From contig JAUWLK010000002.1 in NCBI GenBank assembly GCA_030613745.1, forward strand, positions 1 through 33,507: a DNA stretch of 33,507 bases. The letters are read 5' to 3'. Positions 3,201-31,357 of the stretch are shown one piece after another (the first letter of the stretch is position 1; the number at the start of each line of letters is the position of its first letter). This stretch comes from Flavobacteriaceae bacterium (GTDB lineage: Bacteria; Bacteroidota; Bacteroidia; Flavobacteriales; Flavobacteriaceae). Both the position numbers and the translations under genes were made by a program. The notes beneath the pieces were generated by a model, which was given only the letters and a program-made list of their open reading frames with translations, was not told where the DNA came from and ran no database searches.

Positions 3201-3543
3201 TTACAGATCCTGTATTCCAAGTACTGTTACCTGAAACACCTGCTGATTCAGTTATATCTTCAAATTTTAAATTGCCTTTATTCAGGTATAATTTGTTTTT
3301 TACCTGATTTCCTGAAAAGAAAATATCTGGAAGATCATCATTATTAATATCGCCAAGGGCAACACCTCCACCATTGTAAAAATACAAATAATCAAGAATA
3401 TTTAGATCGTTTTTTTCAGTAATCGTATTCTTAAAATCAATGCCAGTAGATTTTGAGGAAGGGTTTTTAAACAATTCTCCTTCTTTGGATATGCAACCAA
3501 GCAATACAAATGTTAAACTTATTAGTGCTAAATATTTATTCAT
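295..3543 (-). CDS. FG-GAP/VCBS repeat and ASPIC/UnbV domain lipoprotein (paralog 3 of the tandem)
   Basis: ORF track 295..3603; start trimmed to M21 (ATG 3543-3541) giving MNKYLALISLTFVLLGC lipobox. Many DxNxDGxxD repeats; ASPIC/UnbV-like 'IDSIKIIWPNKTYQLLKNIAVNQTL'. Confidence 0.9.
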   Translation of the reverse strand: MNKYLALISLTFVLLGCISKEGELFKNPSSKSTGIDFKNTITEKNDLNILDYLYFYNGGGVALGDINNDDLPDIFFSGNQVKNKLYLNKGNLKFEDITESAGVSGNSTWNTGSVMGDINGDGLLDIYVCAVIGINGFGGYNELYINNGDNTFTESAAKYGLDFETFSSNIAFLDYDLDGDLDIYILNHAVHTQESFGRSDIRNKRNFQTGDKLLRNDGEKFTDVSEQAGIFGGANGYGLGISIADFNQDGYPDIFIGNDFHEDDYYYINNGDGTFSERLKEFFGHTSQASMGNDVADINHDGWPDIISLDMLPEDEKALKSSEGDDDIQIQKLRTGHYGYHYQYTRNMLYINQQNGNYLETALLSGIAATDWSWSPLFADYNQDGEQDLFISNGIPKRPNDLDFIKFVSSEQIQKKIMNTKLVDQKAIDLMPSGKVHNYIFKGGSDLFFENKSGNWIVNDTLVSGATALGDLDNDGDLDLVINILNNEAALYINKTNSKANFLKIKFDYPNPNHFGIGTKVFSYVDGNLQYKELYTVRGFQASSEPIIHFGYGNVEKIDSIKIIWPNKTYQLLKNIAVNQTLIISPENTKPFEYKSLQPKTEILFKRVKNNLGIDFKHDEDNYIDFNRQKLIPYQISDRGPATAIGDIDNDGKEDIFFGGSKHIASKIYIQKDSIYIENRIVTIANDSIKEDVSAIIADLNNDGKNDLFLGSGGADFYNKMKPLLDSYYIQTDSTFIATKLPDYFENASVIKTNDIDNDGDLDLFVAGNTISNDFGKIPNSYILINDKGSFSLAKNEELQNVGMITDAVWDDFDNDGVKDLIVVGEWMQPEFFKNQNGLLIKVDLLNQKLNGLWRSIIPFDIDNDGDIDYLLGNWGTNTRFKATNKYPMKMYYADFDLNGSTETIITIEKNGNYYPLLGLDELSGQLVSLRKKFNTYKSYAGKTIEEVFDKNSLQSAKLLEVHELQSGYLENKKGQFNFVPFQSELQISPITCFLNYDFDNDGETEILAAGNYFGVIPFHGRFDSFSGAVIKNKSEIISGYQLGLDFAQKSIRHLNIISLNNKPYLLVTINDDMAQVYELKK

Positions 3544-6500
3544 TGATCGAGAAAATTTTAGGTTTTTCATCATTGATAGCAAAAAGGAAAAATACTTTAC
3601 CATTTTTATCTTTAAATTGCTTTATATGTTTTACTTCACTTTTAATAAAAATTCCACTTTTGTCATAGTTTTGCCATGTGAATTCAAGATTACCATCATT
3701 TAATAAAACATCTCCGTAGTCTGCATCTAGCCGAGAGAATTGAGGTTTAAACTCAAAATTATTACCGGCCATGATAAGATCTAAATTCCCATCTTTATCA
3801 ATGTCAGTACATACAATGCCATTAATACATGAAAATTGTACTCGGGTTGGTAGTTTTTTAATAGTAAACTTACCATTGCCTTCATTAATAGCGATTATAG
3901 TTTCTGAAATGTTCATTTTTTTCATAATGGTATTTTGAAATATTTCTTCTGAAAATAATTCACTTACAGTTTTATGAGCATATTCAGAAGCTTTTAAGTT
4001 TTGTTTTTTTAGAAATGAGATTTGATTAGTAAGTTCTTTCTTCATATGAATAGGGTAATCCTTCCCATCAATATTTCGAGTCATAATTTGCTCAATAGTA
4101 CCATTATTATCAAAATCATTTATCCACATTTTCATTGGATTTTCTTGAGAAGCTCTATAAAGCGTGTTATTACCCTGGTTGCCAAAAATAAAATCCATAT
4201 CTCCATCATTATCAAGGTCTGCAGTCCCAATAGCATTCCATATTCCATAATAATCATCTAATGTAGAAGTTAGCTTAACAAGTCTTCGTCCATTATTTTT
4301 ATAAATTTTTGGAGTATCCCATTCTGAAACAGTAATAAGATCTTTTTTGTTATCATTATTTACATCTATCCAAATAGCATCGGTAATCATACCTGCATCT
4401 TTAAGATCGTATGCTATTCGTTCTGTTGCATTATTAAAAGTTCCATCTCCATTATTTTCTAAAAACAAGTGGTTTGGATTCACTCCATAATTACTTACAA
4501 TACTTCTTGATCCAATAAACACGTCTATATCTCCATCGTTATCAAAATCATGTGGACTAATTACAGCTGTGTTTTTATTTACAGTTGGTATAAAGGTTTC
4601 TGATTTAGAAAAATAACCCTTACCATTATTTAGATATAATCTGGTTTTATAAGTATTTTCCTCGCCGATTTGATTTCCTCCAGAACCTACCATTAGATCC
4701 AAATCTCCATCACCATCAACATCAAAAAATGCTGCAGCAGTGTCTTCAAAGTCCTCATCTGAAACAAATACCTGTTGCGTATTTATTTTTAATTTACCTT
4801 TTCCTTTATGTAGATAGATTATTCCTGATTGACCTTTGGCTCCTCCAATAAAGACATCTTCATTTCCATCATTATTTATATCGCCTATAGCCAAGGCAGG
4901 ACCTTCTTGTGAAAGCATTTTTGTAATAAGACCTTCATGATTAAAATCTGAATACATATTTTCTTCATGTGCCACTAATTTATTATTAGTTATTTCAGTT
5001 AGAAGGGTTTTAATTTTTCCTTTTTTAAAAGGAATGAAAACTTCTGAAGCTTCTGATTGTTTTAAAGTTAAAACCTGATTTGCTTGAATATTTGTTAATT
5101 TTTGTGTTTTATCGTCAGGCCAAATTACACGGAGGGAGTCAATACTTTCCGAAGTACCTAACCCGATGGTCATGACATAATCTACAGATGATTGAAACCC
5201 TCTGGATGACACTAGTTCCTGAATTACAATATTATCGTCATAATAAAGTTTTATTGAGGTTCCTATTGCAAATTTATTACTTTGTTTGCCTATGAAGTTC
5301 AATTTTATATAGTTATTATCGGTCAGAGTTTCGGCATTATTTCTATAAATAAAAGCTTCCATATTTACATTGTTGATTACCAAATCGAGATCTCCATCAT
5401 TATCTAAGTCGCCATAAGCAGCTCCATTTGACATACTCGGAATTTCAAAGCCCCATTCTTTATTAGCATTGTTAAAAGTAAGATCACGATTGTTTTTGTA
5501 AGCATAATTTGGCTGAGGTTTAACAGGCATTCTATTAATTATGGAGTCAATAGCTTCCTTTTTACCCGTTAATGCCATGTTTTGAATGATTTCATTAGCA
5601 AAATAATCCACAAAATCAATATCAGTTAGATCATGGTTGATCCCATTTGTGACAAAAATATCTCTAAAACCGTCATTATCCATATCAAAGATTAGACCTG
5701 CCCAACTCCAATCTGTTGAAGAAATTCCACTAAAGCAGGCAATTTCCGAAAAAGTATTATTACCATTATTTAACTGGAGAGTGTTTTGTATGTATTGCTG
5801 ATAAAAATCTTTGCTTTGTTTCAATTTATATATATTATAACCTTCAAACTCCATTACTGATTTAACACGTTGATCACCTTCGGGTAACATATCGGTAATA
5901 AAAATATCTATTAAACCATCATTATTAATATCTCCCATATCTATTCCCATAGCAGAAAGTGATAGATGTGATGTCCAATTTTTAACTTCTTCTGTAAATG
6001 TACCATCGTGATTATTTATATATAAATAATCACGTTCATAAAAATCATTAGAAACATATATATCAGGATATAGATCCCCATTAATATCACTTATCATCAC
6101 TCCTAAACCAAACCCTATAAGGCTTCCATAAATACCTGCTTCTTCACTTACATCAGTAAATCTACCTCCATCATTTCGTAAAAGCATATCTCCAACTCCT
6201 CTAAAAATACCAGGCACACCTTCCCAATCCTGTGCTCTGACTTCTCTTTGCTTGGCATAAGCTAAACTAGTAACAGGAATATTACTATTGTTAAGAATAT
6301 AGGCATCCAAATCACCATCTTTATCATAATCGAAAAAGGTTGCATGTGTTGTAAAGCCGGTTTTAGCTAAATTATATTGTTCGGCTTTTTCAGTAAAAGT
6401 AAGATCTCCGTTATTAATATATAAATCATTATCATGATTATTACCTTCCAAATTTCCTGCATTACTTACATAAATATCCAGTAAACCATCCTGATTTATA

Positions 6501-6895
6501 TCAACCATAGTTACACCTGTTGACCAAGGTTTATTACCTGAAACACCTGCAGACTCAGAAATATCTTCAAACGTAAGATTACCTTTATTTAAGTATAGCT
6601 TATTGGGTCTCATATTAGCTGTCATATAAATATCTGGAAGCCCATCATTATTAATATCACCAATAGCAACACCACCACCATTATAAAAGTTTCTGTATTT
6701 AAATATGTTGAATTTTTTTTGGTTTACAACTTCGTTAATAAAATCTACACCAGTCTCTTCTGAACTAAGTAGAGTAAACAATGTCGCAATATTATCTTTT
6801 GATTTTAGTTCTCCTTCTTTTTTTGATTCACAAGAAAAAAATAATATTGTGCTTATCAAAATTATTACCAAGTTTTTAAATAGTTTAAATTTCAT
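3536..6895 (-). CDS. FG-GAP/VCBS repeat and ASPIC/UnbV domain lipoprotein (paralog 2)
   Basis: MKFKLFKNLVIILISTILFFSC lipobox; repeated DINNDGxxD motifs; 'IDSLRVIWPDDKTQKLTNIQANQVLTL'. Stop overlaps the next start by 8 bp. Confidence 0.92.
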   Translation of the reverse strand: MKFKLFKNLVIILISTILFFSCESKKEGELKSKDNIATLFTLLSSEETGVDFINEVVNQKKFNIFKYRNFYNGGGVAIGDINNDGLPDIYMTANMRPNKLYLNKGNLTFEDISESAGVSGNKPWSTGVTMVDINQDGLLDIYVSNAGNLEGNNHDNDLYINNGDLTFTEKAEQYNLAKTGFTTHATFFDYDKDGDLDAYILNNSNIPVTSLAYAKQREVRAQDWEGVPGIFRGVGDMLLRNDGGRFTDVSEEAGIYGSLIGFGLGVMISDINGDLYPDIYVSNDFYERDYLYINNHDGTFTEEVKNWTSHLSLSAMGIDMGDINNDGLIDIFITDMLPEGDQRVKSVMEFEGYNIYKLKQSKDFYQQYIQNTLQLNNGNNTFSEIACFSGISSTDWSWAGLIFDMDNDGFRDIFVTNGINHDLTDIDFVDYFANEIIQNMALTGKKEAIDSIINRMPVKPQPNYAYKNNRDLTFNNANKEWGFEIPSMSNGAAYGDLDNDGDLDLVINNVNMEAFIYRNNAETLTDNNYIKLNFIGKQSNKFAIGTSIKLYYDDNIVIQELVSSRGFQSSVDYVMTIGLGTSESIDSLRVIWPDDKTQKLTNIQANQVLTLKQSEASEVFIPFKKGKIKTLLTEITNNKLVAHEENMYSDFNHEGLITKMLSQEGPALAIGDINNDGNEDVFIGGAKGQSGIIYLHKGKGKLKINTQQVFVSDEDFEDTAAAFFDVDGDGDLDLMVGSGGNQIGEENTYKTRLYLNNGKGYFSKSETFIPTVNKNTAVISPHDFDNDGDIDVFIGSRSIVSNYGVNPNHLFLENNGDGTFNNATERIAYDLKDAGMITDAIWIDVNNDNKKDLITVSEWDTPKIYKNNGRRLVKLTSTLDDYYGIWNAIGTADLDNDGDMDFIFGNQGNNTLYRASQENPMKMWINDFDNNGTIEQIMTRNIDGKDYPIHMKKELTNQISFLKKQNLKASEYAHKTVSELFSEEIFQNTIMKKMNISETIIAINEGNGKFTIKKLPTRVQFSCINGIVCTDIDKDGNLDLIMAGNNFEFKPQFSRLDADYGDVLLNDGNLEFTWQNYDKSGIFIKSEVKHIKQFKDKNGKVFFLFAINDEKPKIFSINE

Positions 6896-6897
6896 TT

Positions 6898-9800
6898 TTA
6901 GTTCTTCTTCTTTTTTATAAAAATAGGAGTATTGTTATTTATAGTAATAATTAAGTACTCAATTTCGTTTATTTTTATTTTTTTAATATCTCTAGCTTGA
7001 CCTGAAATATCAAAAGATGGATTTGGTTTTACTTTAAAAAATCCTTTTTGGTCATTGAGTAGTAATGTACCATGAAAAGCATCTAATCTACCCAATTGTG
7101 TACTAATATCATAATCATTTCCAGCAATTAATATATCTTTAAAACCATCTCTATTAAAATCATCCAAATACAAAGTTCTAATAGAAGATACCTGTGTTAA
7201 AAAAGGTAATTTTATTTTATTAAATTTATTTTCCCCTGTATTTTCAAAATAACAACTTGCCAACTCAAATACTTGTTTTTTATAAGCATCATTTAATTTA
7301 TCACTAGCAAACAAGTTTGAGAAATCAGACCGAGCAAAATCAGTATAAGAAAGGAATTTTTTATTGAGCATTGGTATCTGTTTGGTCAGATTATCTTTTG
7401 AAGAGAAAACAGTCTCTTTCGTTTGAGTATAGTAAGAAACTATTGCTTCATCTTTGCCATTATTATCAAAATCATTAATGTATAATTGTAAAGGTTCATG
7501 TTTTGAAGCGTTTAAACGAGTGTTTAAGCCCCAATTACCAACAACAAAATCAATATCACCATCCTTATCAAAATCATCTGCTTTTATTTTGTTCCACCAG
7601 CCATTAGTATACTTCAGGTTATTTTTAGATTGTAATTTAAATTGATTTTTATGATTAATAAAAATGGAAATTGGCATCCAGTGCCCTATTGCAATTATGT
7701 CAAGAAGTTTATCACCGTTTAAGTCTATTATAGCCAAGTCTTCTATTAAACCAATATTGGATAAATCTTTAGCAATAATTGTACTTACGTCTTTGAAATT
7801 TCCATGTCCATCATTTTCAAAAATATAATTCTTTGCTGATCTCCCAAAATTTTGTGGAAGTGCATTTGATCCTATTATAATATCTTGATCACCATCAAGA
7901 TCAAAATCAAATGCTTTAACTACTGATGCATTTATTTCAATTTTTTTAAATGCATTACTTAACTTAAAGTTTCCATTCTCATTGAGGTACAGTCTTGGCA
8001 CTAATGCTGTTCCTGATTTAAATTCATTTCCACCAGAGACAACCAAAAGATCTTGATCTCCATCATTATCAGCATCAAAAAAAAGATTATCAGTATCTTC
8101 ATTAATACTGTTTTTTTCAAAAGATTCCTGTAAAGAAATTGAAAATACCCCTTTTTTATTCTGAATATACAGTGTTCCAGGTTGTTTTTTAGCTCCACCA
8201 ATAAAAATATCATCTAAACCATCTGTATTAATATCACCAACTGATATTTTTGGACCTTCAAATCCTTTTGTATAAGGGATTAAAGGTTCCCGGTTAAACT
8301 CATAAGATGGTAGTTCCTGATGTTTAAGTTTTATGGGAGAATCAACATTAGTTAAAAAACTATCATTTTGAGAATTAAAGGAATAAAAGTCACCTGAAGC
8401 CTCATTATATTTTAACGCTATTGATATATTGGATTTGATTTTTTTTAAAGTTTGAAACTTTCCACCTGGCCAAATTACAGTAAGTGAATCAGCAAAGTCA
8501 TATTTCCCAATACCAATATTTAATTCTGGTGAAATTGCTGATAAATAACCTCGTGATAAAAAATTTTCATTTGTAATAGTCAATGAATCTAAATAAACAA
8601 TAACTTTAGATCCAATTCCAAATTTATTTTTAAAAGGACCTTTAAATTTAATTTTTAAATAATTGTTTTTAATTTTTATATCAGATTTGTTTTCTAAAAT
8701 AAATGCTTTGTCGTTTACATTATTAACAACAATATCTAAATCACCATCATTATCAAGATCTGCATATATTACACCATTACTAAATGAAGGAATCTTTTCA
8801 AACCAATTATCAGTATAATTTGAAAAAGTTAAATCTGCATTATTTTTAAAAAAATAATTTGAAAGTTTTTTTTCTGGAATTTCATTTGTAAAAGCCATAT
8901 CTTCATAACTCATTCCTTTATTGATACGTTTTTGAATTTTTTCATTGACAATAAAGTTTATAAAGTCCATATCATTGGTGGCGCCTTTTATTCCATTAGA
9001 AATAAAAATATCTTTATAACCATCATTATCAAGATCAACAATGAGTGGCCCCCAAGACCAATCGGTTGCAACTATACCCGAAGCAAATGCAATTTCGCTG
9101 TATTTTGTATTGCCTAGATTTAAATGCAATGTGTTTTGTGTAAATTGAGCTTGATAACCTTTTTTTAAATATTGACCATAAATTTGATTATCATATTCTG
9201 AACCTGATTTTTTATATGTTTCTATATTTTCTGGAAGCATATCTAAAGAAACAATATCAGTAAGTCCGTCATTATTTATATCAGCGATATCATTTCCCAT
9301 TGAAGCCTGTGAGGTATGCCCTAAATTTGTTATATCTTTTGAAATGATCTCTTCAAAAGTTCCGTTTTTTTGATTGATGTACAAATAATCATTTTCAAAA
9401 AAATCATTTCCAATATATATATCAGGGTAACCATCATTATTTAGGTCACTAATAGATAAACCTAAGCCATAACCTATTTTTCCTTGAAAAATTCCTGCTT
9501 CTTGAGATATTTCTATATACTTACCATTATCATTTTTAAACAATTTATCACCGGAAAAGCTATCAATCTCGTTTCTTTGACTTCCTTTACCATAAGTTCT
9601 GTTTGGATAAACGGAATGATTCATTAAGAACATATCCAAATCTCCGTCTAAATCGAAATCAAAAAAAGAAGATTGTGTAGCAAAACTTAAAATATCTAGA
9701 TTGTAAGCTTTTGCATTTTCTTTAAATGTAGGATTACCATCACTTGATAATCCTTGATTGATATAAAGTAAGTTTTTACCTTTAATATTTTTAAAATCAC

Positions 9801-10191
9801 CTACTTTGCAAATATAGATATCAAGTAAGTTATCATGGTTAATATCAACAAGTGTAACTCCGTTAGTCCATTCTTCAGAATTATTTATACCTGCTTTTAA
9901 AGATATATCTTCAAACTGTAAATTACCTTTATTTAAATATAGCTTATCATGAACTTGATTGCCGGTAAAATACAAGTCAATTAATCCATCATTATTAAAA
10001 TCTCCTGCAGCAATTCCTGCACCATTATAATAATAAAGGTAAGAAAGTATGTTTAAAGAAGGAGTTGGTGATAATTTGTTGTTGAATTGAATTCCTGTAT
10101 TATTTTTTAATACGAATAATTTTTTTTTATCATTACAAGAATTAAATAAAAATATAATAAATAAAAAATATAATACTTGAGATGGTTTCAT
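6898..10191 (-). CDS. FG-GAP/VCBS repeat and ASPIC/UnbV domain lipoprotein (paralog 1, first of the operon)
   Basis: Start trimmed to M7 (MKPSQVLYFLFIIFLFNSC lipobox). DxNxDG repeats; 'ADSLTVIWPGGKFQTLKKIKSN'. Only 2 bp separate it from the next gene. Confidence 0.9.
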   Translation of the reverse strand: MKPSQVLYFLFIIFLFNSCNDKKKLFVLKNNTGIQFNNKLSPTPSLNILSYLYYYNGAGIAAGDFNNDGLIDLYFTGNQVHDKLYLNKGNLQFEDISLKAGINNSEEWTNGVTLVDINHDNLLDIYICKVGDFKNIKGKNLLYINQGLSSDGNPTFKENAKAYNLDILSFATQSSFFDFDLDGDLDMFLMNHSVYPNRTYGKGSQRNEIDSFSGDKLFKNDNGKYIEISQEAGIFQGKIGYGLGLSISDLNNDGYPDIYIGNDFFENDYLYINQKNGTFEEIISKDITNLGHTSQASMGNDIADINNDGLTDIVSLDMLPENIETYKKSGSEYDNQIYGQYLKKGYQAQFTQNTLHLNLGNTKYSEIAFASGIVATDWSWGPLIVDLDNDGYKDIFISNGIKGATNDMDFINFIVNEKIQKRINKGMSYEDMAFTNEIPEKKLSNYFFKNNADLTFSNYTDNWFEKIPSFSNGVIYADLDNDGDLDIVVNNVNDKAFILENKSDIKIKNNYLKIKFKGPFKNKFGIGSKVIVYLDSLTITNENFLSRGYLSAISPELNIGIGKYDFADSLTVIWPGGKFQTLKKIKSNISIALKYNEASGDFYSFNSQNDSFLTNVDSPIKLKHQELPSYEFNREPLIPYTKGFEGPKISVGDINTDGLDDIFIGGAKKQPGTLYIQNKKGVFSISLQESFEKNSINEDTDNLFFDADNDGDQDLLVVSGGNEFKSGTALVPRLYLNENGNFKLSNAFKKIEINASVVKAFDFDLDGDQDIIIGSNALPQNFGRSAKNYIFENDGHGNFKDVSTIIAKDLSNIGLIEDLAIIDLNGDKLLDIIAIGHWMPISIFINHKNQFKLQSKNNLKYTNGWWNKIKADDFDKDGDIDFVVGNWGLNTRLNASKHEPLQLYINDFDNNGKDEAIVSYYTQTKETVFSSKDNLTKQIPMLNKKFLSYTDFARSDFSNLFASDKLNDAYKKQVFELASCYFENTGENKFNKIKLPFLTQVSSIRTLYLDDFNRDGFKDILIAGNDYDISTQLGRLDAFHGTLLLNDQKGFFKVKPNPSFDISGQARDIKKIKINEIEYLIITINNNTPIFIKKKKN

Positions 10192-10290
10192 TATATTAAA
10201 AAATACCAATTATTAAAGATAAGTTTAACACAGTGTTTTCAATTTATAAAACTAATTTAAATATTTAGGAATACCTTCTGGTTTTTCATA

Positions 10291-10490: not shown

Positions 10491-11780
10491 ATGAATGAAA
10501 AAAAATCCCATATAATAATATTTATAATATTTATAATATCAATAATTGGACTCTCAATTGTGCAGTATCAATATTTACGCATTGGTTTAAATCTAGCTAA
10601 AGTCCAATTTAATGAAAAAATGGGTTTGGTTGTAAATAATATCAAAGAAGGACTTAAACAACCCGATGAATTGACTTTTTTAGTAGGAAAAGCTATCACT
10701 AAAGATGACACTTATTTTAAGCTTAGTATTGATAGTGTACATGATGCCTCAAGTTATTTTATGAATGATTTTTTAAAAGATAAACTATTGCAGCAAGGTA
10801 TTAAAACAGAATTTACTTATACTTTAACTGCAAAAGACTCAACAGACTATTTAAAGTCACCTAATTCTTATAATAATGAAGAATCTCTTTTAAAGTATAC
10901 AATAGCACTAGATGGTTATTTGCCTTCATTAGTTAAAAAAAGACTTGTTCTAGAACTTCAATTTAAAAATTTAAACAATTATTTTTTATCTCAGATAAAC
11001 GGATTAACAATACCTAGTTTATTATTTATTGTGGCAATAATTTTTGTTATAATTTGGGTTCTTAAATCGTTTTATTGGCAAAAAAATTTAATAACAATAA
11101 CCAATGAATTTATTAATAATCTTACGCATGAATTAAAAACTCCTGTTTTTTCTATTGGAATTGCAACAAAAATATTACAAGAAAAAACTAATAATGAAAA
11201 TAAAGAATTGGTAAATATGATACGTGGTCAAGTTGATAAACTTAAAAATCAAATTGAAAAAGTATTAGAATTGGCAAGCTTAGAAGGTAAAAAGAATTTT
11301 ATTGAAAAAAAGGTTATAGATTTTAAACCTATAATTTTAAAATTAATAAAAGATTTTGAACAATTAGCAGTTTTAGAAAACATTAATTTTATTAGTGAAG
11401 TTAAGGGTAGTCAGTTTATTATTAATTGTGAACCATATCATCTTGAAAATGCAATTAATAGTCTTTTAGATAATGCTAATAAGTATTCAAAAGAAAATAT
11501 AAAAATTATACTTTTGGTTTTTAAAGATAAAAATAAATTATTTATTAGTGTGAAGGATAACGGTATAGGAATTACTGATGAAGATAAAAAAAAGATTTTT
11601 GATAAGTATTTTAGAATATCAGCAGGAGATGTTCATAATGTTAAAGGCTATGGTTTAGGATTGAATTATGTAAAAAGAATTGTAAAACTTCACAAGGGTA
11701 CAATAGCTGTAAAAAGCAAATTAGGTGAAGGCTCAGAATTTATATTTAGTTTACCTTTGTATAACAATGAAAAAAACTAA
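10491..11780 (+). CDS. Sensor histidine kinase (two TM segments, HisKA + HATPase_c)
   Basis: H-box FINNLTHELKTPVFSIGIA, N-box SLLDNANKYS, G boxes DNGIGI / GYGLGLNYV; N-terminal and ~aa 180 hydrophobic segments. Confidence 0.93.
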   Translation: MNEKKSHIIIFIIFIISIIGLSIVQYQYLRIGLNLAKVQFNEKMGLVVNNIKEGLKQPDELTFLVGKAITKDDTYFKLSIDSVHDASSYFMNDFLKDKLLQQGIKTEFTYTLTAKDSTDYLKSPNSYNNEESLLKYTIALDGYLPSLVKKRLVLELQFKNLNNYFLSQINGLTIPSLLFIVAIIFVIIWVLKSFYWQKNLITITNEFINNLTHELKTPVFSIGIATKILQEKTNNENKELVNMIRGQVDKLKNQIEKVLELASLEGKKNFIEKKVIDFKPIILKLIKDFEQLAVLENINFISEVKGSQFIINCEPYHLENAINSLLDNANKYSKENIKIILLVFKDKNKLFISVKDNGIGITDEDKKKIFDKYFRISAGDVHNVKGYGLGLNYVKRIVKLHKGTIAVKSKLGEGSEFIFSLPLYNNEKN

Positions 11781-12468
11781 AAAAATATTATTAGTAGAAG
11801 ATGATGAGTCTTTAGGATATTTACTTTCAGAATATCTTAGGATGAAAGATTTTGATGTTATTTGGAAAAAAAATGGTATTTCAGCTTTGGAAACTATTCG
11901 TCAAGATTATTTTGATTTGATTGTATTAGATGTGATGATGCCAGATATGGATGGTTTTACTTTAGCAAGAAGAATTAAGCAACAATTTACTGAAACCCCT
12001 TTTATTTTTTTAACGGCACGCTCTTTAAAAATAGATGTTTTAAAAGGATTTTCTTTAGGTGCAGTTGATTATTTAAAAAAACCTATAGATGAAGAAGAAT
12101 TAGTAGTAAGATTAAATACATTATTAAATACTTTGTATGTTAATAAATTAACTTCAAATAATAATAAAGGTAAATTTACTTTAGGTGATTATGTATATAA
12201 TAAAAATAATCTTCAATTAGTTTATAAAGATGGTTTTGTGCAACAATTAACATTTAAGGAAAATGAGTTATTGTATCTTTTGGTTATCAAACAAAATGAA
12301 TTGTGTTCTCATAAAGAGATTTTAAATAGCATTTGGAGTAAAAATGATTTTTTCAGTAAAAAAAGTTTAAATGTTTTTGTTTCACGGTTAAGAAAATACT
12401 TTAGTAAAGACCGATCAATCAGAATTGAAAATGTTCATAATCAAGGATTTATTTTTAAATTAGATTAA
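11767..12468 (+). CDS. OmpR-family response regulator (REC + winged-helix)
   Basis: Start trimmed to ATG 11767 (MKKTKKILLVEDDESLGYLL); DVMMPDMDG, TARS, K of YLKKP; C-terminal winged helix 'LTFKENELLYLLVIKQNELCSHKEILNSIW...LNVFVSRLRKYFSKD'. Overlaps the HK stop by 14 bp. Confidence 0.93.
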   Translation: MKKTKKILLVEDDESLGYLLSEYLRMKDFDVIWKKNGISALETIRQDYFDLIVLDVMMPDMDGFTLARRIKQQFTETPFIFLTARSLKIDVLKGFSLGAVDYLKKPIDEEELVVRLNTLLNTLYVNKLTSNNNKGKFTLGDYVYNKNNLQLVYKDGFVQQLTFKENELLYLLVIKQNELCSHKEILNSIWSKNDFFSKKSLNVFVSRLRKYFSKDRSIRIENVHNQGFIFKLD

Positions 12469-12548: not shown

Positions 12549-14129
12549 TTAATATCCAGGATTTTGAACCAAATTAGGGTTTGATAATAAAGCATTAGAT
12601 GGAATTGGAAATAAATTTTTATTTGCATCACCAACAGCTCCTGGGTCTTTAAACTCCCAATCTTTAGTAAATTGACCAAAACGAACTAAGTCATTCCTTC
12701 TGGTAAATTCTACATACAATTCTCTACCTCTTTCATCCAAAAGATCACTTTCAGAAACACTACCTAAATCGGATGCTCCCCTTAATGCTCTTAATTCATT
12801 TACCATAATTGTAGCATCTCCACCACTTCTTAGCATAGCTTCTGCCTTCATTAAATGTGCATCAGAATATCTAAAAATAATTTCATGACTTGTGAAACCA
12901 CCGTTTGCAGGGTGGTATTTAATAACGCGAATTCCTGTTTTTTCATCATTTCCAGATAATCCGGGAAGTTCTTTTGAAAATACCAAATCTGCTCCTGCTC
13001 TGTCTTTAAAGTTAACACCTAAGGAATCAACTTGTTGCCCAATCAAAAACCCATAACCAATACCATAATTAGGATTGTCTGCATTAGTTGAATTAGTTGC
13101 ATTAGTTGCATCAGGTACCCAACCTCTTCGTTCTTCCTGACCGTCACCTGCTTTGTTAGAATTAGGATTTCCTTCAAAAAGATCATAAAATTCTGCTAAA
13201 GTTGTAAAACCATTCCATCCACCACCTGTATTGTCTGGAGTAATTTGGTGATAATGTAATCCGTTCCATATTCTATTTCCTACACCTGTAGGTAAGTACC
13301 AAATAGTTTCATCATCAACATCTTCTTTAAATAGATCAAAATAACCTGCTTGTAATCCAAAACCATCAGCTGCAATTGCATCAACAGCAGTAATTACTCC
13401 TGCCATATCACCTGAGTCAGCTGAACCTGTACCTTTAAAAATATGGGCATTTAAAAGTAATCTGGCCTTTAAAAAATATGCTGATGCTTTTGATGCTCTA
13501 TTAGTTTCAGCACTTGGTCCAGTTGCAGGTAAATCAGCAATAGCATCGTTTAAATCCTGTAAAATAAAATCATAAGCTTCTGTACTAGACATAACTATTG
13601 GATTAATTTCAGGTCCTTCATCTGGTTGTCTAAATGGTACTTGACCATAAAGGTCTAAAATGGTATACATACTTAAAGCTCTTACAAATTTAGCATCTGC
13701 TAATTGTGTTGCTGATGCACTACTTAATGGATCAATTATTTCACTAGCGAGAAATGTATTTTGATTGAACTGGTTCCATACAGTAAGTACATATGCGTGA
13801 GATGGTGACCAGGTATGTGCATGTAAAGTTCTCCAAACACCATTATCTCCCCAATCAGTACCTCTAGTAGGTACAAGTTGCTCATCAGTAGTAACTTCAT
13901 TCAAGGCAAAATAATTACCTTGATCTCCAAACTGTCCATTAAATGAATTGTATAAATTTGAAATGGCAGCATCTACATCTTCCACTCCAGAAAAACCTCC
14001 TTCACCACCAGAACTGTGGATAGAGTCTGTTTCTTTAATCTCCAAATTAGTACATGAGATCATAAACAGGGCTGACATCATAGACAGCAATCCTATTCTT
14101 TTTATTTGTTTTTTTATCATTATTTTCAT
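12549..14129 (-). CDS. SusD/RagB-family outer-membrane nutrient-binding lipoprotein
   Basis: Lipobox LFMISC; typical SusD C-terminus 'RRNDLVRFGQF...NLFPIPSNALLSNPNLVQNPGY'; directly downstream of a SusC gene. Confidence 0.93.
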   Translation of the reverse strand: MKIMIKKQIKRIGLLSMMSALFMISCTNLEIKETDSIHSSGGEGGFSGVEDVDAAISNLYNSFNGQFGDQGNYFALNEVTTDEQLVPTRGTDWGDNGVWRTLHAHTWSPSHAYVLTVWNQFNQNTFLASEIIDPLSSASATQLADAKFVRALSMYTILDLYGQVPFRQPDEGPEINPIVMSSTEAYDFILQDLNDAIADLPATGPSAETNRASKASAYFLKARLLLNAHIFKGTGSADSGDMAGVITAVDAIAADGFGLQAGYFDLFKEDVDDETIWYLPTGVGNRIWNGLHYHQITPDNTGGGWNGFTTLAEFYDLFEGNPNSNKAGDGQEERRGWVPDATNATNSTNADNPNYGIGYGFLIGQQVDSLGVNFKDRAGADLVFSKELPGLSGNDEKTGIRVIKYHPANGGFTSHEIIFRYSDAHLMKAEAMLRSGGDATIMVNELRALRGASDLGSVSESDLLDERGRELYVEFTRRNDLVRFGQFTKDWEFKDPGAVGDANKNLFPIPSNALLSNPNLVQNPGY

Positions 14130-14145
14130 GACTTTTTAATTTTTT

Positions 14146-17100
14146 TTAAAATGTAACATTAAATCCAAAAGTAATTGTTCTTGGTCTTGGGTATGAAGTA
14201 TAATCTATACCAGCAGTTGGTAAACCATTCAATAAATCCCCTTGAGCAGGACTTGTACTTAACTCAGGATCTAAACCACTATAATCAGTAATTAGAAATA
14301 AATTTTGACCAGTTAAGTAAAATCGTAATGAATTCAAAAAGCTATCTTCTTTAATTGGTACTGTATATCCAATAGAAGCATTTTGTAAACGAATAAAATC
14401 ACCTTTTTCTAAAAACCTTTCTGATACTTCTGCCGCAGCATTACCAGCCTCACCACTTGTTAGTACATTTGGTGTTACATTACGTGCATTGTTAATAGAT
14501 CCAGCAATAAACAAAGCATTGGCCGTATTGTTGTACACATAAAAACCAGATTGTGCAGATAAAAATGCTGAAAAATCAAAGTTTTTATAAGTAAGATTTG
14601 TAGAAAGACCCCAGTTAGTTGTTGGAAGCGCACTTTTTCCTCTAAACTGTTGATTATCATCAGAAATTGGTTGACCATTTGCATCAAAACCTTCAAAACT
14701 TCTTATAAAGTAAGAGAATAATGGTTGGTTTTCAGCCAATATTTGAGAATAAGCTTGTGATAATCCTTGTCCGCGAATAGTACCTGCAGGAATTTGTCCT
14801 CCAAAATCTTGTAGCTCATTATCATTATAGGCTATGTTAAATCCGGCACTCCAAGTTAAATCATGACTTTGAATTAAGTCATAATTAATTGAAAATTCAA
14901 TTCCCTGATTTAATACAGTAGCATCTAAATTTTGAAAGAAAAATGGTTGAGGTGAAGGCTGTGCCGCTTCAACACTCAATAAAAGGTCTTTAGTTTCAGA
15001 TTTATATATATCAATACTACCGTTTAGTCTATTCATGAATAAACCATAATCAATACCAAATCCATAAGAAGTAGTTTCTTCCCATTTTAGATCAGGGTTT
15101 GCAAAAGAAACAGGGCCAGTACCCGGTATGTCAATTCCACCATCTTCTTTAATGCCAATACCAGCATATCTTTCTCTACGTATAAAGTTACCATGACCTA
15201 AACCATCTTGATTACCTGTAATACCCCAACTTACTCTGGCTTTTAATAGTGAAAAAGTATCTCCCATAAAATCTTCTTCATTTATTTTCCATGCAAATGC
15301 AGCTGAAGGAAAAACACCATATTGGTTATCAGAACCAAAACGAGATGAACCATCTATTCTTACTGTACCAGTAAATAAATATTTGTTTGCTATGGTATAA
15401 TTTGCTCTTGCAAAGTAAGATTGTAATTCGTCAGTAGAATCAAAGGTGTCACCAACAACAGACGATACGTTTGTACCACTAGGAGAGGTTAAGTTATCAG
15501 TTGTAGGAGTTGGAAACAAACGATTAACAAATAAACCAGATGAATTAAAACCATACTGTTGGTAAGAACCTGATATAGCACTTTCAATAGCAGCGGCTGA
15601 ATTTTCTAAATCACTCGCCATTTGATTCATATTGTTAGTACTGTAACCCCAACCATTTACATTTCTACCGCTTCTTTGAAAATCTTGAAAAGAGTATCCA
15701 GCAAGTAGGTTCAATTTTGAATTTTCAAAATCTTTATCCCAGTTTAGGGTAAGTTCCAATAATTTACTTTTAGCATCCAAATCATTTAAACTTCCTGTAC
15801 CATTACCAAAAACACCACTACCAGCATTTCTAGCTAAACCAGATGTTTGTACTTCTCTTGTTGATGTTGAACTGTCATAACCTAAAGTTAATTTAGCTAT
15901 TAATTCAGAAGTTATATTATAATCTGCAGAAAAGTTAAGTAATATTCTATTTGTTTCAGATGTATTTTGAATATATGCTAACATGTTAGCAGGATTTCTT
16001 TGTCCTCCTGAATCAAAATCAGGATCATTTGGCCATGTAGGATTAGCAGAGTATGCAGCTCCTAAAAGATCTCCTTGAAAACCGGCACTACCACTTAGTG
16101 CAGGTAATTCATCATCTACTTTTGAAATAGTTGATTGTAAGTTTAATTTTAATTTGTCATCAAAAAATCGATGATTTAGATTTAATCGTCCTGAAATTCT
16201 TTGTAAAGACGAGTTTTCCATAATTCCTTGTTGATCCTGATAACCAAATGTAGCTCTTACTGATCCATCTTCATAACTGCGAGAATATGCTAAATTTTGA
16301 TCGTGAGAAAAAGAATTTCTCGTTACAATATCTTGCCAATCTGTTTTATTACCAAAATCTTGAGCTACTGCATCACCACCAAATTGAGTTACTGCATCTA
16401 AAAAAACTTCTGGTTTTAACAAATCATAACTATTGGCAGGTGTTGCATAACTATAGGATGAATTGAATTCAAATTGATTTCCTCTTCCTTTTTTAGTAGT
16501 AACAATAACCACACCGTTTGCCCCTCTTGAACCGTAAATAGCTGTAGCCGATGCATCTTTTAAAACACTTATGCTTTCAATATCATTTGGATTTAGAAAG
16601 CTAAGTGGGTTTTGAGCTGAACTTGAACCAATTCCATTTCTTGATTCAGCAGAAGTATTTTCACCTGAAAGAGGTACCCCATCAACAACGTATAAAGGGT
16701 CATTATTTGATCGTACTGAAGTAGTACCACGAATACGAATTGCTATTCCTGCACCAGGTTCTCCACTGGATTGTGTAATTTGTACCCCAGCAACTTTACC
16801 CTGAATAAGTTGTTCAGGAGCAACGATTGCACCTCCGTTAAAATCTTTAGAGGTAACAGAAGCAACAGCTCCAGTTGCATCTTTAACTGTTGTTGTACCA
16901 TATCCAATTACAATAACTTCATCTAAAGCTTCTGAATCAATTTGCAATTGAACATTGATAACAGATTGGTTGTTTACAGAAACCTCTTGATTAATAAAGC
17001 CTATAAAGCTAAATACCAAAATGGCATCATCACCAACACCATCAATGGAATAATTTCCATCAAAATCTGTGGCTGTACCATTTGATGTGCCTTTGACAAT

Positions 17101-17226
17101 AACATTAACTCCAGGTAATGGTCCATCATCACCTGTTACTGTTCCACTTACTGTTTGAGCAAAAATTATGCTACCTGATAGCATAATACTCAAAAACATA
17201 AATTGTTTGAGCAATTTGTTTTTCAT
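14146..17226 (-). CDS. SusC/RagA-family TonB-dependent receptor
   Basis: Signal peptide, CarboxypepD_reg-like N-domain (VSGTVTGDDGPLPGVNVIVKGTSNGTATDFDGNY), plug 'DEVIVIGYGTTTVKDATGAVASV', 'DPLYVVDGVPL', 'SISVLKDASATAIYGSRGANGVVIVTTK', C-terminal 'PRTITFGFNVTF'. Confidence 0.96.
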   Translation of the reverse strand: MKNKLLKQFMFLSIMLSGSIIFAQTVSGTVTGDDGPLPGVNVIVKGTSNGTATDFDGNYSIDGVGDDAILVFSFIGFINQEVSVNNQSVINVQLQIDSEALDEVIVIGYGTTTVKDATGAVASVTSKDFNGGAIVAPEQLIQGKVAGVQITQSSGEPGAGIAIRIRGTTSVRSNNDPLYVVDGVPLSGENTSAESRNGIGSSSAQNPLSFLNPNDIESISVLKDASATAIYGSRGANGVVIVTTKKGRGNQFEFNSSYSYATPANSYDLLKPEVFLDAVTQFGGDAVAQDFGNKTDWQDIVTRNSFSHDQNLAYSRSYEDGSVRATFGYQDQQGIMENSSLQRISGRLNLNHRFFDDKLKLNLQSTISKVDDELPALSGSAGFQGDLLGAAYSANPTWPNDPDFDSGGQRNPANMLAYIQNTSETNRILLNFSADYNITSELIAKLTLGYDSSTSTREVQTSGLARNAGSGVFGNGTGSLNDLDAKSKLLELTLNWDKDFENSKLNLLAGYSFQDFQRSGRNVNGWGYSTNNMNQMASDLENSAAAIESAISGSYQQYGFNSSGLFVNRLFPTPTTDNLTSPSGTNVSSVVGDTFDSTDELQSYFARANYTIANKYLFTGTVRIDGSSRFGSDNQYGVFPSAAFAWKINEEDFMGDTFSLLKARVSWGITGNQDGLGHGNFIRRERYAGIGIKEDGGIDIPGTGPVSFANPDLKWEETTSYGFGIDYGLFMNRLNGSIDIYKSETKDLLLSVEAAQPSPQPFFFQNLDATVLNQGIEFSINYDLIQSHDLTWSAGFNIAYNDNELQDFGGQIPAGTIRGQGLSQAYSQILAENQPLFSYFIRSFEGFDANGQPISDDNQQFRGKSALPTTNWGLSTNLTYKNFDFSAFLSAQSGFYVYNNTANALFIAGSINNARNVTPNVLTSGEAGNAAAEVSERFLEKGDFIRLQNASIGYTVPIKEDSFLNSLRFYLTGQNLFLITDYSGLDPELSTSPAQGDLLNGLPTAGIDYTSYPRPRTITFGFNVTF

Positions 17227-27300: not shown

Positions 27301-28017
27301 TTAAACATTATCTAATCTAAATTTAACATCGTTTTTATAGCTTCTACTAATAGGTATTGCTTTATTATTTATTTCGACAAATTCATTTGTAAAAGATTCG
27401 ATTTTATTTACAGAAACAATAAAAGATCTATGGATTCTTAAAAAATCCTTTTTTGGTAGCTTTGCTTCAATACTTGTAATAGTTTCTCGTGTAATTATAG
27501 TTTTATTAGGTAAATGAATTTTTAAATAATCACCTAAACTTTCAATATAATTGACTTCAGAAAAATTAATTTTAATCATTTTTCTGTCAGATCGGACAAA
27601 TATAAAATCACTTTTTTCACGAATCAATTCTTCTTTTTTATCTGAATGAAAAGTGATGTTTTCATCTAAAAATTTATTTACAGCTTGTAATAATCTTTCA
27701 AATGAAATAGGTTTTAATAAATAATCTACAGCTTTTAAATCAAAACCATCAATGGCATATTCTCGATAAGCGGTTGTAAAAATTATTTTAATGTTTTTAT
27801 TGATAGATTTTGCAAAAGAAAGACCAGATATTTCTGGCATATTGATATCTAAAAAGATAAGATCAATGTTGTTTTTATTGATTTCATTAAAAGCTTCTAC
27901 TGCATTTTTACAAGTAGCAACAACCTTAATAGAATCTACCTTGCGCAAATGGTTTTCTAATATTTCACGAGCAATGGGTTCATCGTCAACAATGATACAT
28001 TGAATGGTTTTAGACAT
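27301..28017 (-). CDS. LytTR-family response regulator
   Basis: REC: 'IIVDDEPIAREIL', 'DLIFLDINMPEISG', 'TTAYREYAIDGFDLKAVDYLLKPISFERL'; LytTR: 'IFVRSDRKMIKINFSEVNYIESLGDYLKIHLPNKTIITRETITSIEAKLPKKDFLRIHRSFIVSVNKIESF'. Confidence 0.95.
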   Translation of the reverse strand: MSKTIQCIIVDDEPIAREILENHLRKVDSIKVVATCKNAVEAFNEINKNNIDLIFLDINMPEISGLSFAKSINKNIKIIFTTAYREYAIDGFDLKAVDYLLKPISFERLLQAVNKFLDENITFHSDKKEELIREKSDFIFVRSDRKMIKINFSEVNYIESLGDYLKIHLPNKTIITRETITSIEAKLPKKDFLRIHRSFIVSVNKIESFTNEFVEINNKAIPISRSYKNDVKFRLDNV

Positions 28018-29080
28018 TTTTTAAGTTGTTTAAATTTGAAATAGTTAGATTTACTATATACCAGTTGTCTTTGGATTGAATATCTAATTGATGGTTATTT
28101 TTATAAAGTAAATCTAATCTTTTTTTAATATTTTCTAATCCTATACCAATTTTATTGGATTTCAATTCATTAGTTAAAACACTATTTTTAATTTTAAAAT
28201 TTAATTGATCTTCATCCAAATTTATTTGAATATCCACTTTTAAAAATCCATCAATTAAGTTGCCATGTTTAAAAGCATTTTCAACAAAAGGTATCATTAT
28301 CATAGGTGCTATTTGTTTTTCATCTATAATACTATTGGTTTTAATAGAAACCTTTAAAGTATCTTGAAATCGCATTTTTTCTAATGCAACATATTCTTTA
28401 ATATGCAATACTTCTTCTTTTAAACTTACTTTTGGTTTATCAACTTGGTATAGAATATAATCAAGTAAATTAGAAAGTTTTAAAATTATTTCAGGTGTAT
28501 TTTTTGATTGTTTTAGAGCAAAACCATAAATAGTATTTAAGGTATTGAATAGAAAGTGCGGGTGGATCTGTTTTTTTAAATATTGTAACTCCTGACTTTT
28601 AATTTGTAATTGGGTATCTAATATTTTGTTTAGAAGCTCTTTGTTTTCGGTTTGTGTTTTAAAGTTATGATTCAATAAACTTATAAAACTTACTATAAAG
28701 ACAACTAAATATACTAGTATTAATACAAATACATAATTTCTACTCATAGGAGGCATATTTTGTAATTCCATGTTAGAAAGAAACACAAAACTTCCAAAAA
28801 TTGCAATTAGGATTAAATAGGTTGAAAAAACTAAAGTATAAGCACTGTAAAGAACAAATAGTTTGTATTTTTTAGTAAGTAAATATTTAGGTATCAAATA
28901 GTAAACCACAAAATAAGTGGTAATCATGGTTATTGGTAATAAAAAACTAGAAAACCAAGTTACGTAGTTGGTGTTATTTGAATTATAACTAAAAAAGTAA
29001 ACAAAGAAAAACCACACGCCTATCCAAAATAAAAAATGTAAGGGTATAAACTTTGTTTTATGGACTTGTGAGATATTCAT
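28010..29080 (-). CDS. LytS/YehU-type sensor histidine kinase (His_kinase family)
   Basis: Four hydrophobic segments; 'QYLKKQIHPHFLFNTLNTIYGFA'; 'MIPFVENAFKHG'; 'GIGLENIKKRLDLLY'. Overlaps the regulator gene by 8 bp. Confidence 0.94.
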   Translation of the reverse strand: MNISQVHKTKFIPLHFLFWIGVWFFFVYFFSYNSNNTNYVTWFSSFLLPITMITTYFVVYYLIPKYLLTKKYKLFVLYSAYTLVFSTYLILIAIFGSFVFLSNMELQNMPPMSRNYVFVLILVYLVVFIVSFISLLNHNFKTQTENKELLNKILDTQLQIKSQELQYLKKQIHPHFLFNTLNTIYGFALKQSKNTPEIILKLSNLLDYILYQVDKPKVSLKEEVLHIKEYVALEKMRFQDTLKVSIKTNSIIDEKQIAPMIMIPFVENAFKHGNLIDGFLKVDIQINLDEDQLNFKIKNSVLTNELKSNKIGIGLENIKKRLDLLYKNNHQLDIQSKDNWYIVNLTISNLNNLKNV

Positions 29081-29198
29081 TATTCAAAGATGCTTATTAT
29101 ATTTTAGTTAGCATATTTTTATAGACCAATTACCATTTTAACTTTCTTTTTTACAAGAATTGTCTTCGAAAAGCAATTTATCAGTTAATATAGTCATT

Positions 29199-29229
29199 TA
29201 ACTGATTTAATAATTCATCTATCGCAAAT
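29199..29229 (+). promoter_or_regulatory. Duplicated upstream element, copy 1
   Basis: TAACTGATTTAATAATTCATCTATCGCAAAT; the 16-mer TTCATCTATCGCAAAT starts 77 bp before the ATG at 29291; -7-like TAATATTG at 29255-29262. Confidence 0.75.
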
Positions 29230-29290
29230 CAAATTTTTCAAGGATAGTTTATATTAATATTGTTTTTTATAAACTTTAAACCTATTTATT

Positions 29291-29653
29291 ATGAGAATGC
29301 CTTTTATTGAATTTTTTGCTAACGGAGATCTAAAATTTATGGTCACAATTTTAATACTTCTTGTTATAGCAATAATTCAATTTATTAAAAAAGTTAAGAA
29401 CAAAGAAAATCAGTTACAAATTAATGTAAAGCTTACTAAACTATCAAATTGGTCGCTTATACTAGCATCATTTGCACTTTTTTTAGGATTAATGCACAGT
29501 TTGTATTTTATTTCAAAAGCTGTTGGAATAGCTCCAAACTTACTTTATCATGGATTAGCAAATACTTTAATTGCTCCAGTATTTGGAGTAGCAGTATGTA
29601 TAATAATAAAACTTTTAGCAACACCTTTAAATGAAAAAATCAACAAACCATAA
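29291..29653 (+). CDS. Small MotA/TolQ/ExbB-like integral membrane protein
   Basis: 120 aa, three hydrophobic segments; 'SWSL-type basic loop then ILASFALFLGLMHSLYFISKAVG...LYHGLANTLIAPVFGVAVCIIIKLL' resembles the core TM2-TM3 of TolQ/MotA-type channels. Confidence 0.65.
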   Translation: MRMPFIEFFANGDLKFMVTILILLVIAIIQFIKKVKNKENQLQINVKLTKLSNWSLILASFALFLGLMHSLYFISKAVGIAPNLLYHGLANTLIAPVFGVAVCIIIKLLATPLNEKINKP

Positions 29654-29657
29654 AACC

Positions 29658-30575
29658 ATGAAAAAAACTCTATGCATAATTTCAATTTTATTTGTTTCGT
29701 TTGTATACGGTCAAAAAAGTGAAGGAGATATTCTTCGTAAAGAAGGAGCAATTGATGATGCAATAAAAGCATATAAAAAGGATTTTGTTTCAAATCCATC
29801 AAATTCAAAAAACACGTATAATTTAGCTTGTGCATATGCTCTCATATATATTCAAAAAGACAGTGCTTATCATTATTTAAATATCGCTTTAAAAAATGAT
29901 TATAGTTTATGGGTACTTGCCGATAATGACTTAATATCATTAACTAATGATATACGTTGGAAAAATATTGAAGTTCAACAATTAAAAAAGTATCAAGAAA
30001 AAAATGGGAATATAAAACAACCAGAATACGCTATTCAATTGTTGAGATTAATTATGAAAGATCAGGCTTTAGATTATCAAATGGATTTAGCAAAAACTTA
30101 TTTTATGAAAAATGGAAAAGCCCCACATTGGTACTATCCTATTGCACAAATGAAGCAAGATATTGCTTCAAATAATTTTAATAAAATGGATAGTTTGATT
30201 AGCCAATATGGTTGGCCTACTTATTCTATGGTTGGTAAACTTGCAGCTGACGCTCCCCTCTTAATAATCAATCACCATGAAAGCGATGAAGTTAGAAAAA
30301 AATATTTAGCCCAAATAAAAAATGCTTGTATAACTAATGAAGGTAGCTGTATGGAGTACGCCAAAATTCAAGATAGAATTTTAGTAAATAGCAATCAACC
30401 ACAAATTTATGGTATGCAATTTCGATATAATGATAAAAGAGTTCTTGAGCCTTTTCCAATTGAAAACCCCGAATTTGTTGATCAACGCAGATCAAAAATA
30501 GGTTTAGAACCATTAAAAAATTATTTGAAAAGAAAAATTAATTATGATTGGAATATTGTTCAAAAAGAAAAATAA
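29658..30575 (+). CDS. Secreted protein with TPR-like N-terminus and DUF6624-like C-terminus
   Basis: Start trimmed to ATG 29658 (MKKTLCIISILFVSFVYGQ signal peptide); 'ISQYGWPTYSMVGKLAADAPLLIINHHES...EYAKIQDRILVNSNQPQIYGMQF' DUF6624-like pattern. Confidence 0.8.
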   Translation: MKKTLCIISILFVSFVYGQKSEGDILRKEGAIDDAIKAYKKDFVSNPSNSKNTYNLACAYALIYIQKDSAYHYLNIALKNDYSLWVLADNDLISLTNDIRWKNIEVQQLKKYQEKNGNIKQPEYAIQLLRLIMKDQALDYQMDLAKTYFMKNGKAPHWYYPIAQMKQDIASNNFNKMDSLISQYGWPTYSMVGKLAADAPLLIINHHESDEVRKKYLAQIKNACITNEGSCMEYAKIQDRILVNSNQPQIYGMQFRYNDKRVLEPFPIENPEFVDQRRSKIGLEPLKNYLKRKINYDWNIVQKEK

Positions 30576-30608
30576 ACACATGTTTTGAATAGTAATAATA
30601 TTGTTAAA

Positions 30609-30639
30609 TAACTGTATTAATTGTTCATCTATCGCAAAT
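30609..30639 (+). promoter_or_regulatory. Duplicated upstream element, copy 2
   Basis: TAACTGTATTAATTGTTCATCTATCGCAAAT; 27/31 identical to 29199-29229, same 16-mer starting 77 bp before the ATG at 30701; -7-like TACTTTCG at 30665-30672. Confidence 0.75.
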
Positions 30640-30700
30640 AAATTTTAAAAAAGTAAGATTGTATTACTTTCGAAGTAGTTTAACTTTAAATCTAAATATT

Positions 30701-31051
30701 ATGTTTTTATCACTTTTAAATGATGGCGGCCCGGTTTTTATGTATCCGCTTCTTGTAATTTTAATTATAGTAATTATTTTAATCGTCAAAGGTTTTCTTA
30801 AAAAAGAAACTTCAACAAAAACTATAAAACTAATAAGCTCAATAACTTTATTTGCATTAGTATGGGGGTTTTTAGGACATATAGTTGGTATGATAGGAGC
30901 TTTCGATGCAATTGAAGCAGTAGGTGAAATATCAACAGGGGTTATGGCAGCTGGAATAAAGATAAGTCTAATTGTGCCTGTTTTTGGTTCATTTATTTTT
31001 CTGGTTGGAAGACTAGGGATTATCATACTTGTTTGGATGCAAAAGGATTAA
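30701..31051 (+). CDS. Small MotA/TolQ/ExbB-like integral membrane protein
   Basis: ORF track start 30659 trimmed to ATG 30701 (MFLSLLNDGGPVFMYPLLVILIIVIILIVKGFL), typical TolQ/ExbB-like N-terminus; 'GVMAAGIKISLIVPVFGSFIFLVGRL'. Confidence 0.75.
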   Translation: MFLSLLNDGGPVFMYPLLVILIIVIILIVKGFLKKETSTKTIKLISSITLFALVWGFLGHIVGMIGAFDAIEAVGEISTGVMAAGIKISLIVPVFGSFIFLVGRLGIIILVWMQKD

Positions 31052-31071: not shown

Positions 31072-31107
31072 AAAGATATTCTTTTCCTACTTGAAAAGAA
31101 TATCTTT
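31072..31107 (+). terminator. Strong stem-loop, probable terminator of the MotA/TolQ-like gene
   Basis: Perfect 15-bp stem AAAGATATTCTTTTC (31072-31086) / GAAAAGAATATCTTT (31093-31107), 6-nt loop, 20 bp after the stop at 31051. Confidence 0.75.
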
Positions 31108-31120
31108 GTTTAAAAACAAT

Positions 31121-31357
31121 TTGAATAGAAAAATTAAATTAATTTGGGATTTCCGTGGTAATGAATCTTTAGAAATTGCGAAACATCATTGCATTCATTT
31201 AGAAGAATTTGCTGTTAAAGAAAATCTTTATTTTTATGAAATTGCTACCAATAAAATTTCAGAAATGTATTGTATTGCTTTTATTACGGTTGACGAAAAA
31301 GATATGATTACCTTTAGAGACGCTTTACAACCGCATAGAGGTGAAGTAGCTAAATAA
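31121..31357 (+). CDS. Small conserved-looking hypothetical protein
   Basis: ORF track starts at TTG 31091, which lies inside the 31072-31107 hairpin; in-frame TTG 31121 gives MNRKIKLIWDFRGNESLEIAKHHCIHLEEFAVKENLYFYEIATNKISEMYCIAFITVDEKDMITFRDALQPHRGEVAK. No ATG before codon 57 of the track ORF. Confidence 0.6.
   Translation: MNRKIKLIWDFRGNESLEIAKHHCIHLEEFAVKENLYFYEIATNKISEMYCIAFITVDEKDMITFRDALQPHRGEVAK

Follow-up and report, generated by a model that had tools for sequence, protein, structure and literature searches.

In a 33,507-nucleotide stretch of Flavobacteriaceae DNA (hereafter the window), we found a tandem LytTR-type promoter box through which a neighboring LytS/LytTR kinase-regulator pair most probably controls a small, dedicated and autoregulated regulon, extended in this genome by duplication of the promoter cassette. 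We put the probability of this reading as a whole at roughly 0.85. We infer that the pair would bind the tandem box and activate a promoter of sigma-A type, with its -7 element at a fixed 33 bp downstream of the box core, and that a second, oppositely oriented box would serve the kinase-regulator operon itself. The regulon would comprise mini-TolQ-like membrane proteins and the motA1-DUF6624 operon, joined in other genera by a beta-lactamase-fold serine hydrolase; in the window, duplication would have left motA1-DUF6624 and motA2 each with its own copy of the cassette. Its output may be an envelope function or a feedback of the membrane proteins on the kinase. The architecture, conservation, synteny and specificity of the box were established by computation, and the coordinates of all features are collected in Table 1.

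Table 1. Genes and predicted regulatory elements of the region, in order of position in the window.
Feature	Position	Strand	Evidence or detail
LytTR-type response regulator, proposed activator	27301-28017	-	PF00072 3.6e-25, PF04397 3.7e-20
LytS-type membrane histidine kinase	28010-29080	-	PF06580 5.4e-25; syntenic in nearly all relatives
-7-like element CATCTTTG, putative kinase promoter	29085-29092	-	33 bp from reverse core
Reverse-oriented, more degenerate box before kinase gene	29118-29158	-	core TCTAT 29125-29121
Tandem LytTR-type box 1	29189-29229	+	32.4 bits against profile from 31 other loci
Box 1, parts	half-site 29191-29199; core 29222-29226	+	upstream half-site TAGTCATTT; downstream part AATTCATCTATCGCAAAT; core TCGCA
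-7 element TAATATTG, predicted motA1 promoter	29255-29262	+	one mismatch to TAnnTTTG; 33 bp from core
motA1, 120-aa membrane protein, distant MotA/TolQ/ExbB relative	29291-29653	+	PF01618 below cut-off
DUF6624 protein, N-terminal signal-like segment and TPR-like part	29667-30575	+	PF20329 2.9e-20 (obtained for the longer frame from 29631); TPR end model
Tandem LytTR-type box 2	30599-30639	+	41.7 bits against profile
Box 2, parts	half-site 30601-30609; core 30632-30636	+	upstream half-site TTGTTAAAT; downstream part TTGTTCATCTATCGCAAAT; core TCGCA
-7 element TACTTTCG, predicted motA2 promoter	30665-30672	+	33 bp from core; predicted TSS 30677
motA2, 116-aa mini-TolQ-like protein, TM2-TM3 core	30701-31051	+	PF01618 2.3e-07; TolQ best fold and sequence match
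Small conserved companion gene	31091-31357	+	frequently downstream of motA2 (synteny)

A repeated 16-mer within a predicted promoter cassette

An earlier, sequence-only reading of this DNA had drawn attention to a 16-mer, TTCATCTATCGCAAAT, present on the forward strand at 29214-29229 and 30624-30639, each time 77 bp upstream of a start codon (29291 and 30701). Both copies were recovered in the window and in the host assembly (2.6 Mb). The genome-wide search that the same reading had named as a check returned these two exact copies only, with the next best match carrying 2 mismatches and no further copy at up to 3 mismatches within the window. None of the near matches elsewhere in the host genome (2-3 mismatches, loci L003-L030) scored as a box. 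Exact matches across 301 genomes numbered three, all in other genera; no homologues of the kinase, the regulator or mini-MotA were found near them, save for a remote regulator match (27%) in L083, and we treated them as chance on account of these flanks.

By itself, an exact 16-mer repeat is unremarkable here, because 89 such pairs occur in the window (29% GC), where a Markov null gives 2-17. What is remarkable is 16-base identity at an equal offset before two start codons: among 253 leader pairs such a run was unique (the next longest being 8), and the leaders of the motA1/motA2 pair were 67% identical as against 46% for the next best. The two leaders had been described as alignable without gaps, and they are indeed homologous over 108 bp at 71% identity (29186-29293 and 30596-30703), beginning 36 bp upstream of a TCGCA core.

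On sequence grounds, the 16-mer is best described as the downstream, promoter-proximal part of a larger promoter cassette with a tandem LytTR-type site. The cassette consists of tandem half-sites 21 bp apart, a core TCGCA[AT] and, exactly 33 bp further on, a -7 element of the Bacteroidota type, the GT of the half-sites standing at -29 and usually at -8 relative to TCGCA. As the sequence-only reading had noticed, the -7-like octamers TAATATTG and TACTTTCG occupy the same column of the leader alignment; the predicted transcription start of the motA1 promoter is 29267. With the strict composite pattern, box 2 was the sole site matched in the host genome. The conserved half-site reads GT[TC]A on the forward strand (GTCA at 29193, GTTA at 30603), just upstream of the spacer. 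TAACTG, whose reverse complement had been proposed as a GTT half-site, belongs to that spacer, and as a half-site candidate it is not conserved beyond the closest relatives. The downstream half-site is degenerate in both window copies, where G is missing from -8 and, in box 2, stands at -9 instead.

Among 67 non-redundant boxes, GT was present at -29 in 63 and at -8 in 46. TAnnTTnG stood at +33 in 64 of the 67, placing the boxes immediately before the target's promoter, with every other offset reaching at most 2; the boxes were selected without the -7 columns, but the profile had been trained on loci with a compulsory match at +33, which makes this count partly circular. No conserved -33 element was found in the promoters of the boxes. 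The flavobacterial -7 element spans -12 to -5 (PMC9723704, PMC6847099), which would put the core at about -45 from the predicted start and the box between about -78 and -38. The activator-like position suggested earlier is therefore borne out in that the box is fixed relative to the -7 element; the 77-bp distance to ATG, once taken as a constraint, varies from about 65 to 160 bp between species. The direct repeats to which LytTR proteins bind are 9-11 nt long and separated by spacers of 11-13 nt (PMC4847170), and most LytTR regulatory systems have 9 bp repeats with 12 bp spacing (PMC6193735). The 21-bp period of the boxes agrees with this geometry, and such paired repeats are seen family-wide, the window copies being degenerate.

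A kinase-regulator pair with a predicted box of its own

The regulator and kinase genes are divergent from the motA1 start, as the sequence-only reading had stated, and form a LytS/LytTR arrangement: a kinase with PF06580 adjoining a regulator with receiver and LytTR domains. The regulator resembles BtsR, its score lying below the equivalog cut-off. Linkage of the boxes with an orthologous LytTR regulator points to a LytTR-domain protein as the factor that would bind them.

Earlier reading of the region had overlooked a second, reverse-oriented box before the kinase gene. Its box-only score in the window exceeded those of all 100 shuffles of the intergenic region, and most of 38 loci carried, on the other strand of this intergenic region, a box that likewise has a 21-bp period; these kinase-side boxes are more degenerate and were picked by the same profile as the motA-side boxes. 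The -7-like octamer at +33 is usually TATTATTG, CAnnTTGC or CATCTTTG. L097 yielded no credible match, and L114, L121 and L124 seem to be off by one. In columns unused for selection, A was found at +34 and T at +38, each in 35 of 38 loci, which supports the kinase-side box. This arrangement suggests autoregulation of the kinase-regulator operon.

The predicted start of the kinase promoter coincides with the ATG in the window and on the kinase side of L064-L076, suggesting a near-leaderless kinase mRNA in the host genus. The relatives' CAnnTTGC resembles the SM5 promoter class (TAnnTTGY) of F. psychrophilum.

Conservation and specificity across Flavobacteriaceae

Close orthologues of motA2 (61-88% identity) occur in most same-genus genomes examined, and in nearly all of those with sufficient contig they are divergent from the kinase-regulator pair across a gap of 207-212 bp; in the window, the gap of that length (210 bp) is the one between the kinase and motA1. 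Of 47 named mini-MotA loci, 43 had the gene next to the pair. Phylogenetic footprinting of the orthologous leaders, also named as a check by the sequence-only reading, placed box, core and -7 element in one register across genera. Anchored on TCGCA (0-4), it consists of GT at -29/-28, A at -26, T at -23, CA at -6/-5 and TAnnTTnG at +33, and it is kept in named loci of Lutibacter, Tenacibaculum, Leeuwenhoekiella, Algibacter, Winogradskyella, Formosa and others. Going over to these named loci also brought out the second half-site, GT at -8.

Profile scores of at least 15 were reached in 42 of the 47 mini-MotA loci (41/43 with the kinase-regulator pair, 1/4 without it), and ordinary ExbB-like gene loci yielded one box match in 33. 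L108 is exceptional in having a strong box and no adjacent pair, L102 and L136 in having the pair and no box. The composite pattern gave 12 matches in 22 same-genus genomes, 10 of them at motA2 (control, 0), and 29 sites in 27 of 151 Flavobacteriaceae genomes (at least 95% completeness, plus the host), against 3 for a reversed control; the pattern includes the -7 element, and both sets of matches were judged by location, not by spacing. According to tblastn of the flanks, 27 of the 29 sites belong to the kinase-regulator locus, where the gene that follows directly encodes a mini-MotA protein or a serine hydrolase (PF00144, beta-lactamase-fold). The remaining ones are L247, before an unlinked motA1-DUF6624 operon, and L239, with no related gene. 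A control pattern shifted by 3 bp produced only 5 matches, 2 of them at the same loci, and a relaxed genome-wide pattern with one mismatch matched as often as its control. Outside the host genus, Bizionia arctica (L128) and G172 (L238/L246) likewise have a pair of boxes each, of which one precedes the hydrolase gene and the other the mini-MotA gene.

The motA1-DUF6624 operon and probable duplication of the cassette

motA1 is rare, being found in 4 of 301 family genomes including the host (E <= 1e-8). In the three others a DUF6624 gene (in the window, the PF20329 match upholds this earlier assignment) likewise adjoins motA1, and a box lies upstream at 31.8-37.6 bits; no kinase or regulator of the LytS/LytTR-pair type was found within the 10 kb examined at these operons. 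In an uncultured Tenacibaculum (L106), motA2, motA1, DUF6624 and a gene of the 31091 type stand in a row behind one box. Because the box precedes three unlinked operons and this row, we regard motA1-DUF6624 as a recurrent member of the predicted regulon. The small LytTR regulon over two mini MotA/TolQ-like genes and a DUF6624 gene that had been proposed from the window finds support in this recurrence of the box, at the orthologous locus as well as at unlinked operons. The likeliest history of the window is duplication of the box-promoter-leader cassette (about 108 bp) followed by differential loss, perhaps with the intervening genes duplicated along with it.

In one genome (G136; L251:5539 region, L247:1637 (+)), a second kinase-type box with a TCTCA core lies opposite the motA1-DUF6624 box and faces a putative GNAT acetyltransferase gene.

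Alternative readings

LytTR proteins are numerous, with 5 matches in the host genome and 7-15 in its relatives, and the assignment of the box to the LytS/LytTR pair consequently rests on linkage. Another LytTR protein, or an unrelated factor, might bind the box with the pair as a mere neighbor, and the strong box of L108 fits such a view. We consider this unlikely given that composite matches in the 151 genomes concentrate at the orthologous kinase-regulator locus, that presence of the box follows presence of the pair and that a matching box faces the kinase gene. It is far less probable still that the shared leader is a mere relic of tandem gene duplication and the 16-mer devoid of a regulatory role: the leaders are homologous over 108 bp and motA1 and motA2 encode distant paralogues (22% identity), as a relic would have it, but the same columns are conserved in single-copy orthologues across genera and the box is present at unlinked motA1-DUF6624 operons. 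Since sequence cannot tell the direction of control, the regulator could also repress, or both repress and activate. However, the box lies upstream, clear of the -7 element and the start, and its rigid spacing and the lack of a conserved -33 element are as for an activator (positions from PMC6847099), so that repression appears improbable. Activation by the adjacent LytS/LytTR pair is the reading that we retain.

Mini-TolQ proteins

Of the two products described earlier as mini MotA/TolQ-like, motA2 scored above the PF01618 cut-off of 22.9 bits (31.1) and motA1 below it (21.1). An alignment of motA2 gave a confident three-helix model (pLDDT 92.1, pTM 0.83) whose best fold match is TolQ (probability 1.0, a weak E of 0.09, TM-score by query 0.5-0.6), and the motA2 profile matches TolQ 127-186 at E 0.0044. 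The stretch that aligns comprises a glycine-rich TM2 (GFLGxxxG...AFD) and TM3. The PF01618, fold and profile matches could be taken as a sign that these small proteins work as genuine proton channels in a motor like ExbBD/TolQR. Likeness is, however, confined to the TM2-TM3 core, and the 116-aa protein leaves no room for the cytoplasmic domain. The conserved pore threonines of TolQ, T145 and T178 (PMC12215075), correspond to S/Q/H and P/A/T in the mini-TolQ proteins, which instead have invariant D69 and K87 and nearly invariant R104. No TolR/ExbD-like partner gene was seen beside the mini-MotA genes in the window. We hold a motor function to be unlikely. Since the proteins lack both the domain and the threonines, calling them proton channels is unsupported, and the earlier epithet "channel-like" was dropped for the same reasons. 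With low confidence, we favor a role in the envelope, be it in sensing, in feedback or as a structural element.

More tentatively, and at less than even odds, the family as a whole may possess an undescribed Flavobacteriaceae envelope-response module, in which LytS/LytTR would control a partnerless mini-TolQ, the beta-lactamase-fold hydrolase and DUF6624, with mini-TolQ serving the kinase as a sensor or feedback element, or else being a membrane device of a new sort, and not working as a proton motor. The companion gene downstream of motA2, whose 88-aa product had no Pfam match, keeps its place near motA2 in many relatives.

Relation to known systems

In LytST-lrgAB, YpdAB-yhjX (for YpdB, PMC4847170) and BtsSR-btsT, a LytS/LytTR pair is dedicated to one or a few nearby, or to single, membrane-protein genes. 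The target here differs in being a MotA/TolQ/ExbB-related mini protein, along with the hydrolase and DUF6624. The open-licence papers searched describe neither the locus nor a LytTR box belonging to it; the pair with a dedicated membrane-protein target is of a known kind and the gene set under its control appears undescribed. Like the sites of YpdB/BtsR (E. coli), AgrA, VirR and HdrR/BrsR, the boxes combine two imperfect direct repeats, set at a distance of about 21 bp ahead of a promoter and next to a LytS/LytTR pair. They differ in their clade-specific sequence (GTyA... and an extended TCGCA core), in the Bacteroidota -7 promoter at a rigid 33-bp spacing and in the back-to-back boxes of the divergent region. 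LytTR Regulatory Systems (LRS; PMC6193735) similarly combine a LytTR regulator with a small membrane protein and autoregulation by tandem repeats. In LRS, however, a kinase-less soluble regulator is co-transcribed with a membrane inhibitor of known type, whereas the locus described here has a response regulator with receiver domain, a LytS kinase and a membrane protein that is a divergent target. In F. johnsoniae, a LytTR regulator and a kinase with neighboring locus tags (FJOH_RS09515 and FJOH_RS09520) were between them mutated in all five co-culture evolution lines (PMC10197871).

If the model is right, the cassette would define to the base, promoter geometry included, a cis element of a LytTR regulator in Bacteroidota, one that predicts targets, autoregulation and transcription starts. 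It would also bring an unstudied mini-TolQ family under one regulator together with DUF6624 and a beta-lactamase-fold hydrolase, and serve as an example of regulon growth via promoter-cassette duplication.

PADLOC gave no match to anti-phage defence systems. Elsewhere in the window, three tandem paralogues of about 1100 aa each with FG-GAP/VCBS-like repeats (295-10209, reverse strand) lie beside two further gene pairs, one of kinase and regulator (10491-12468) and one SusC/SusD-like (12549-17226).
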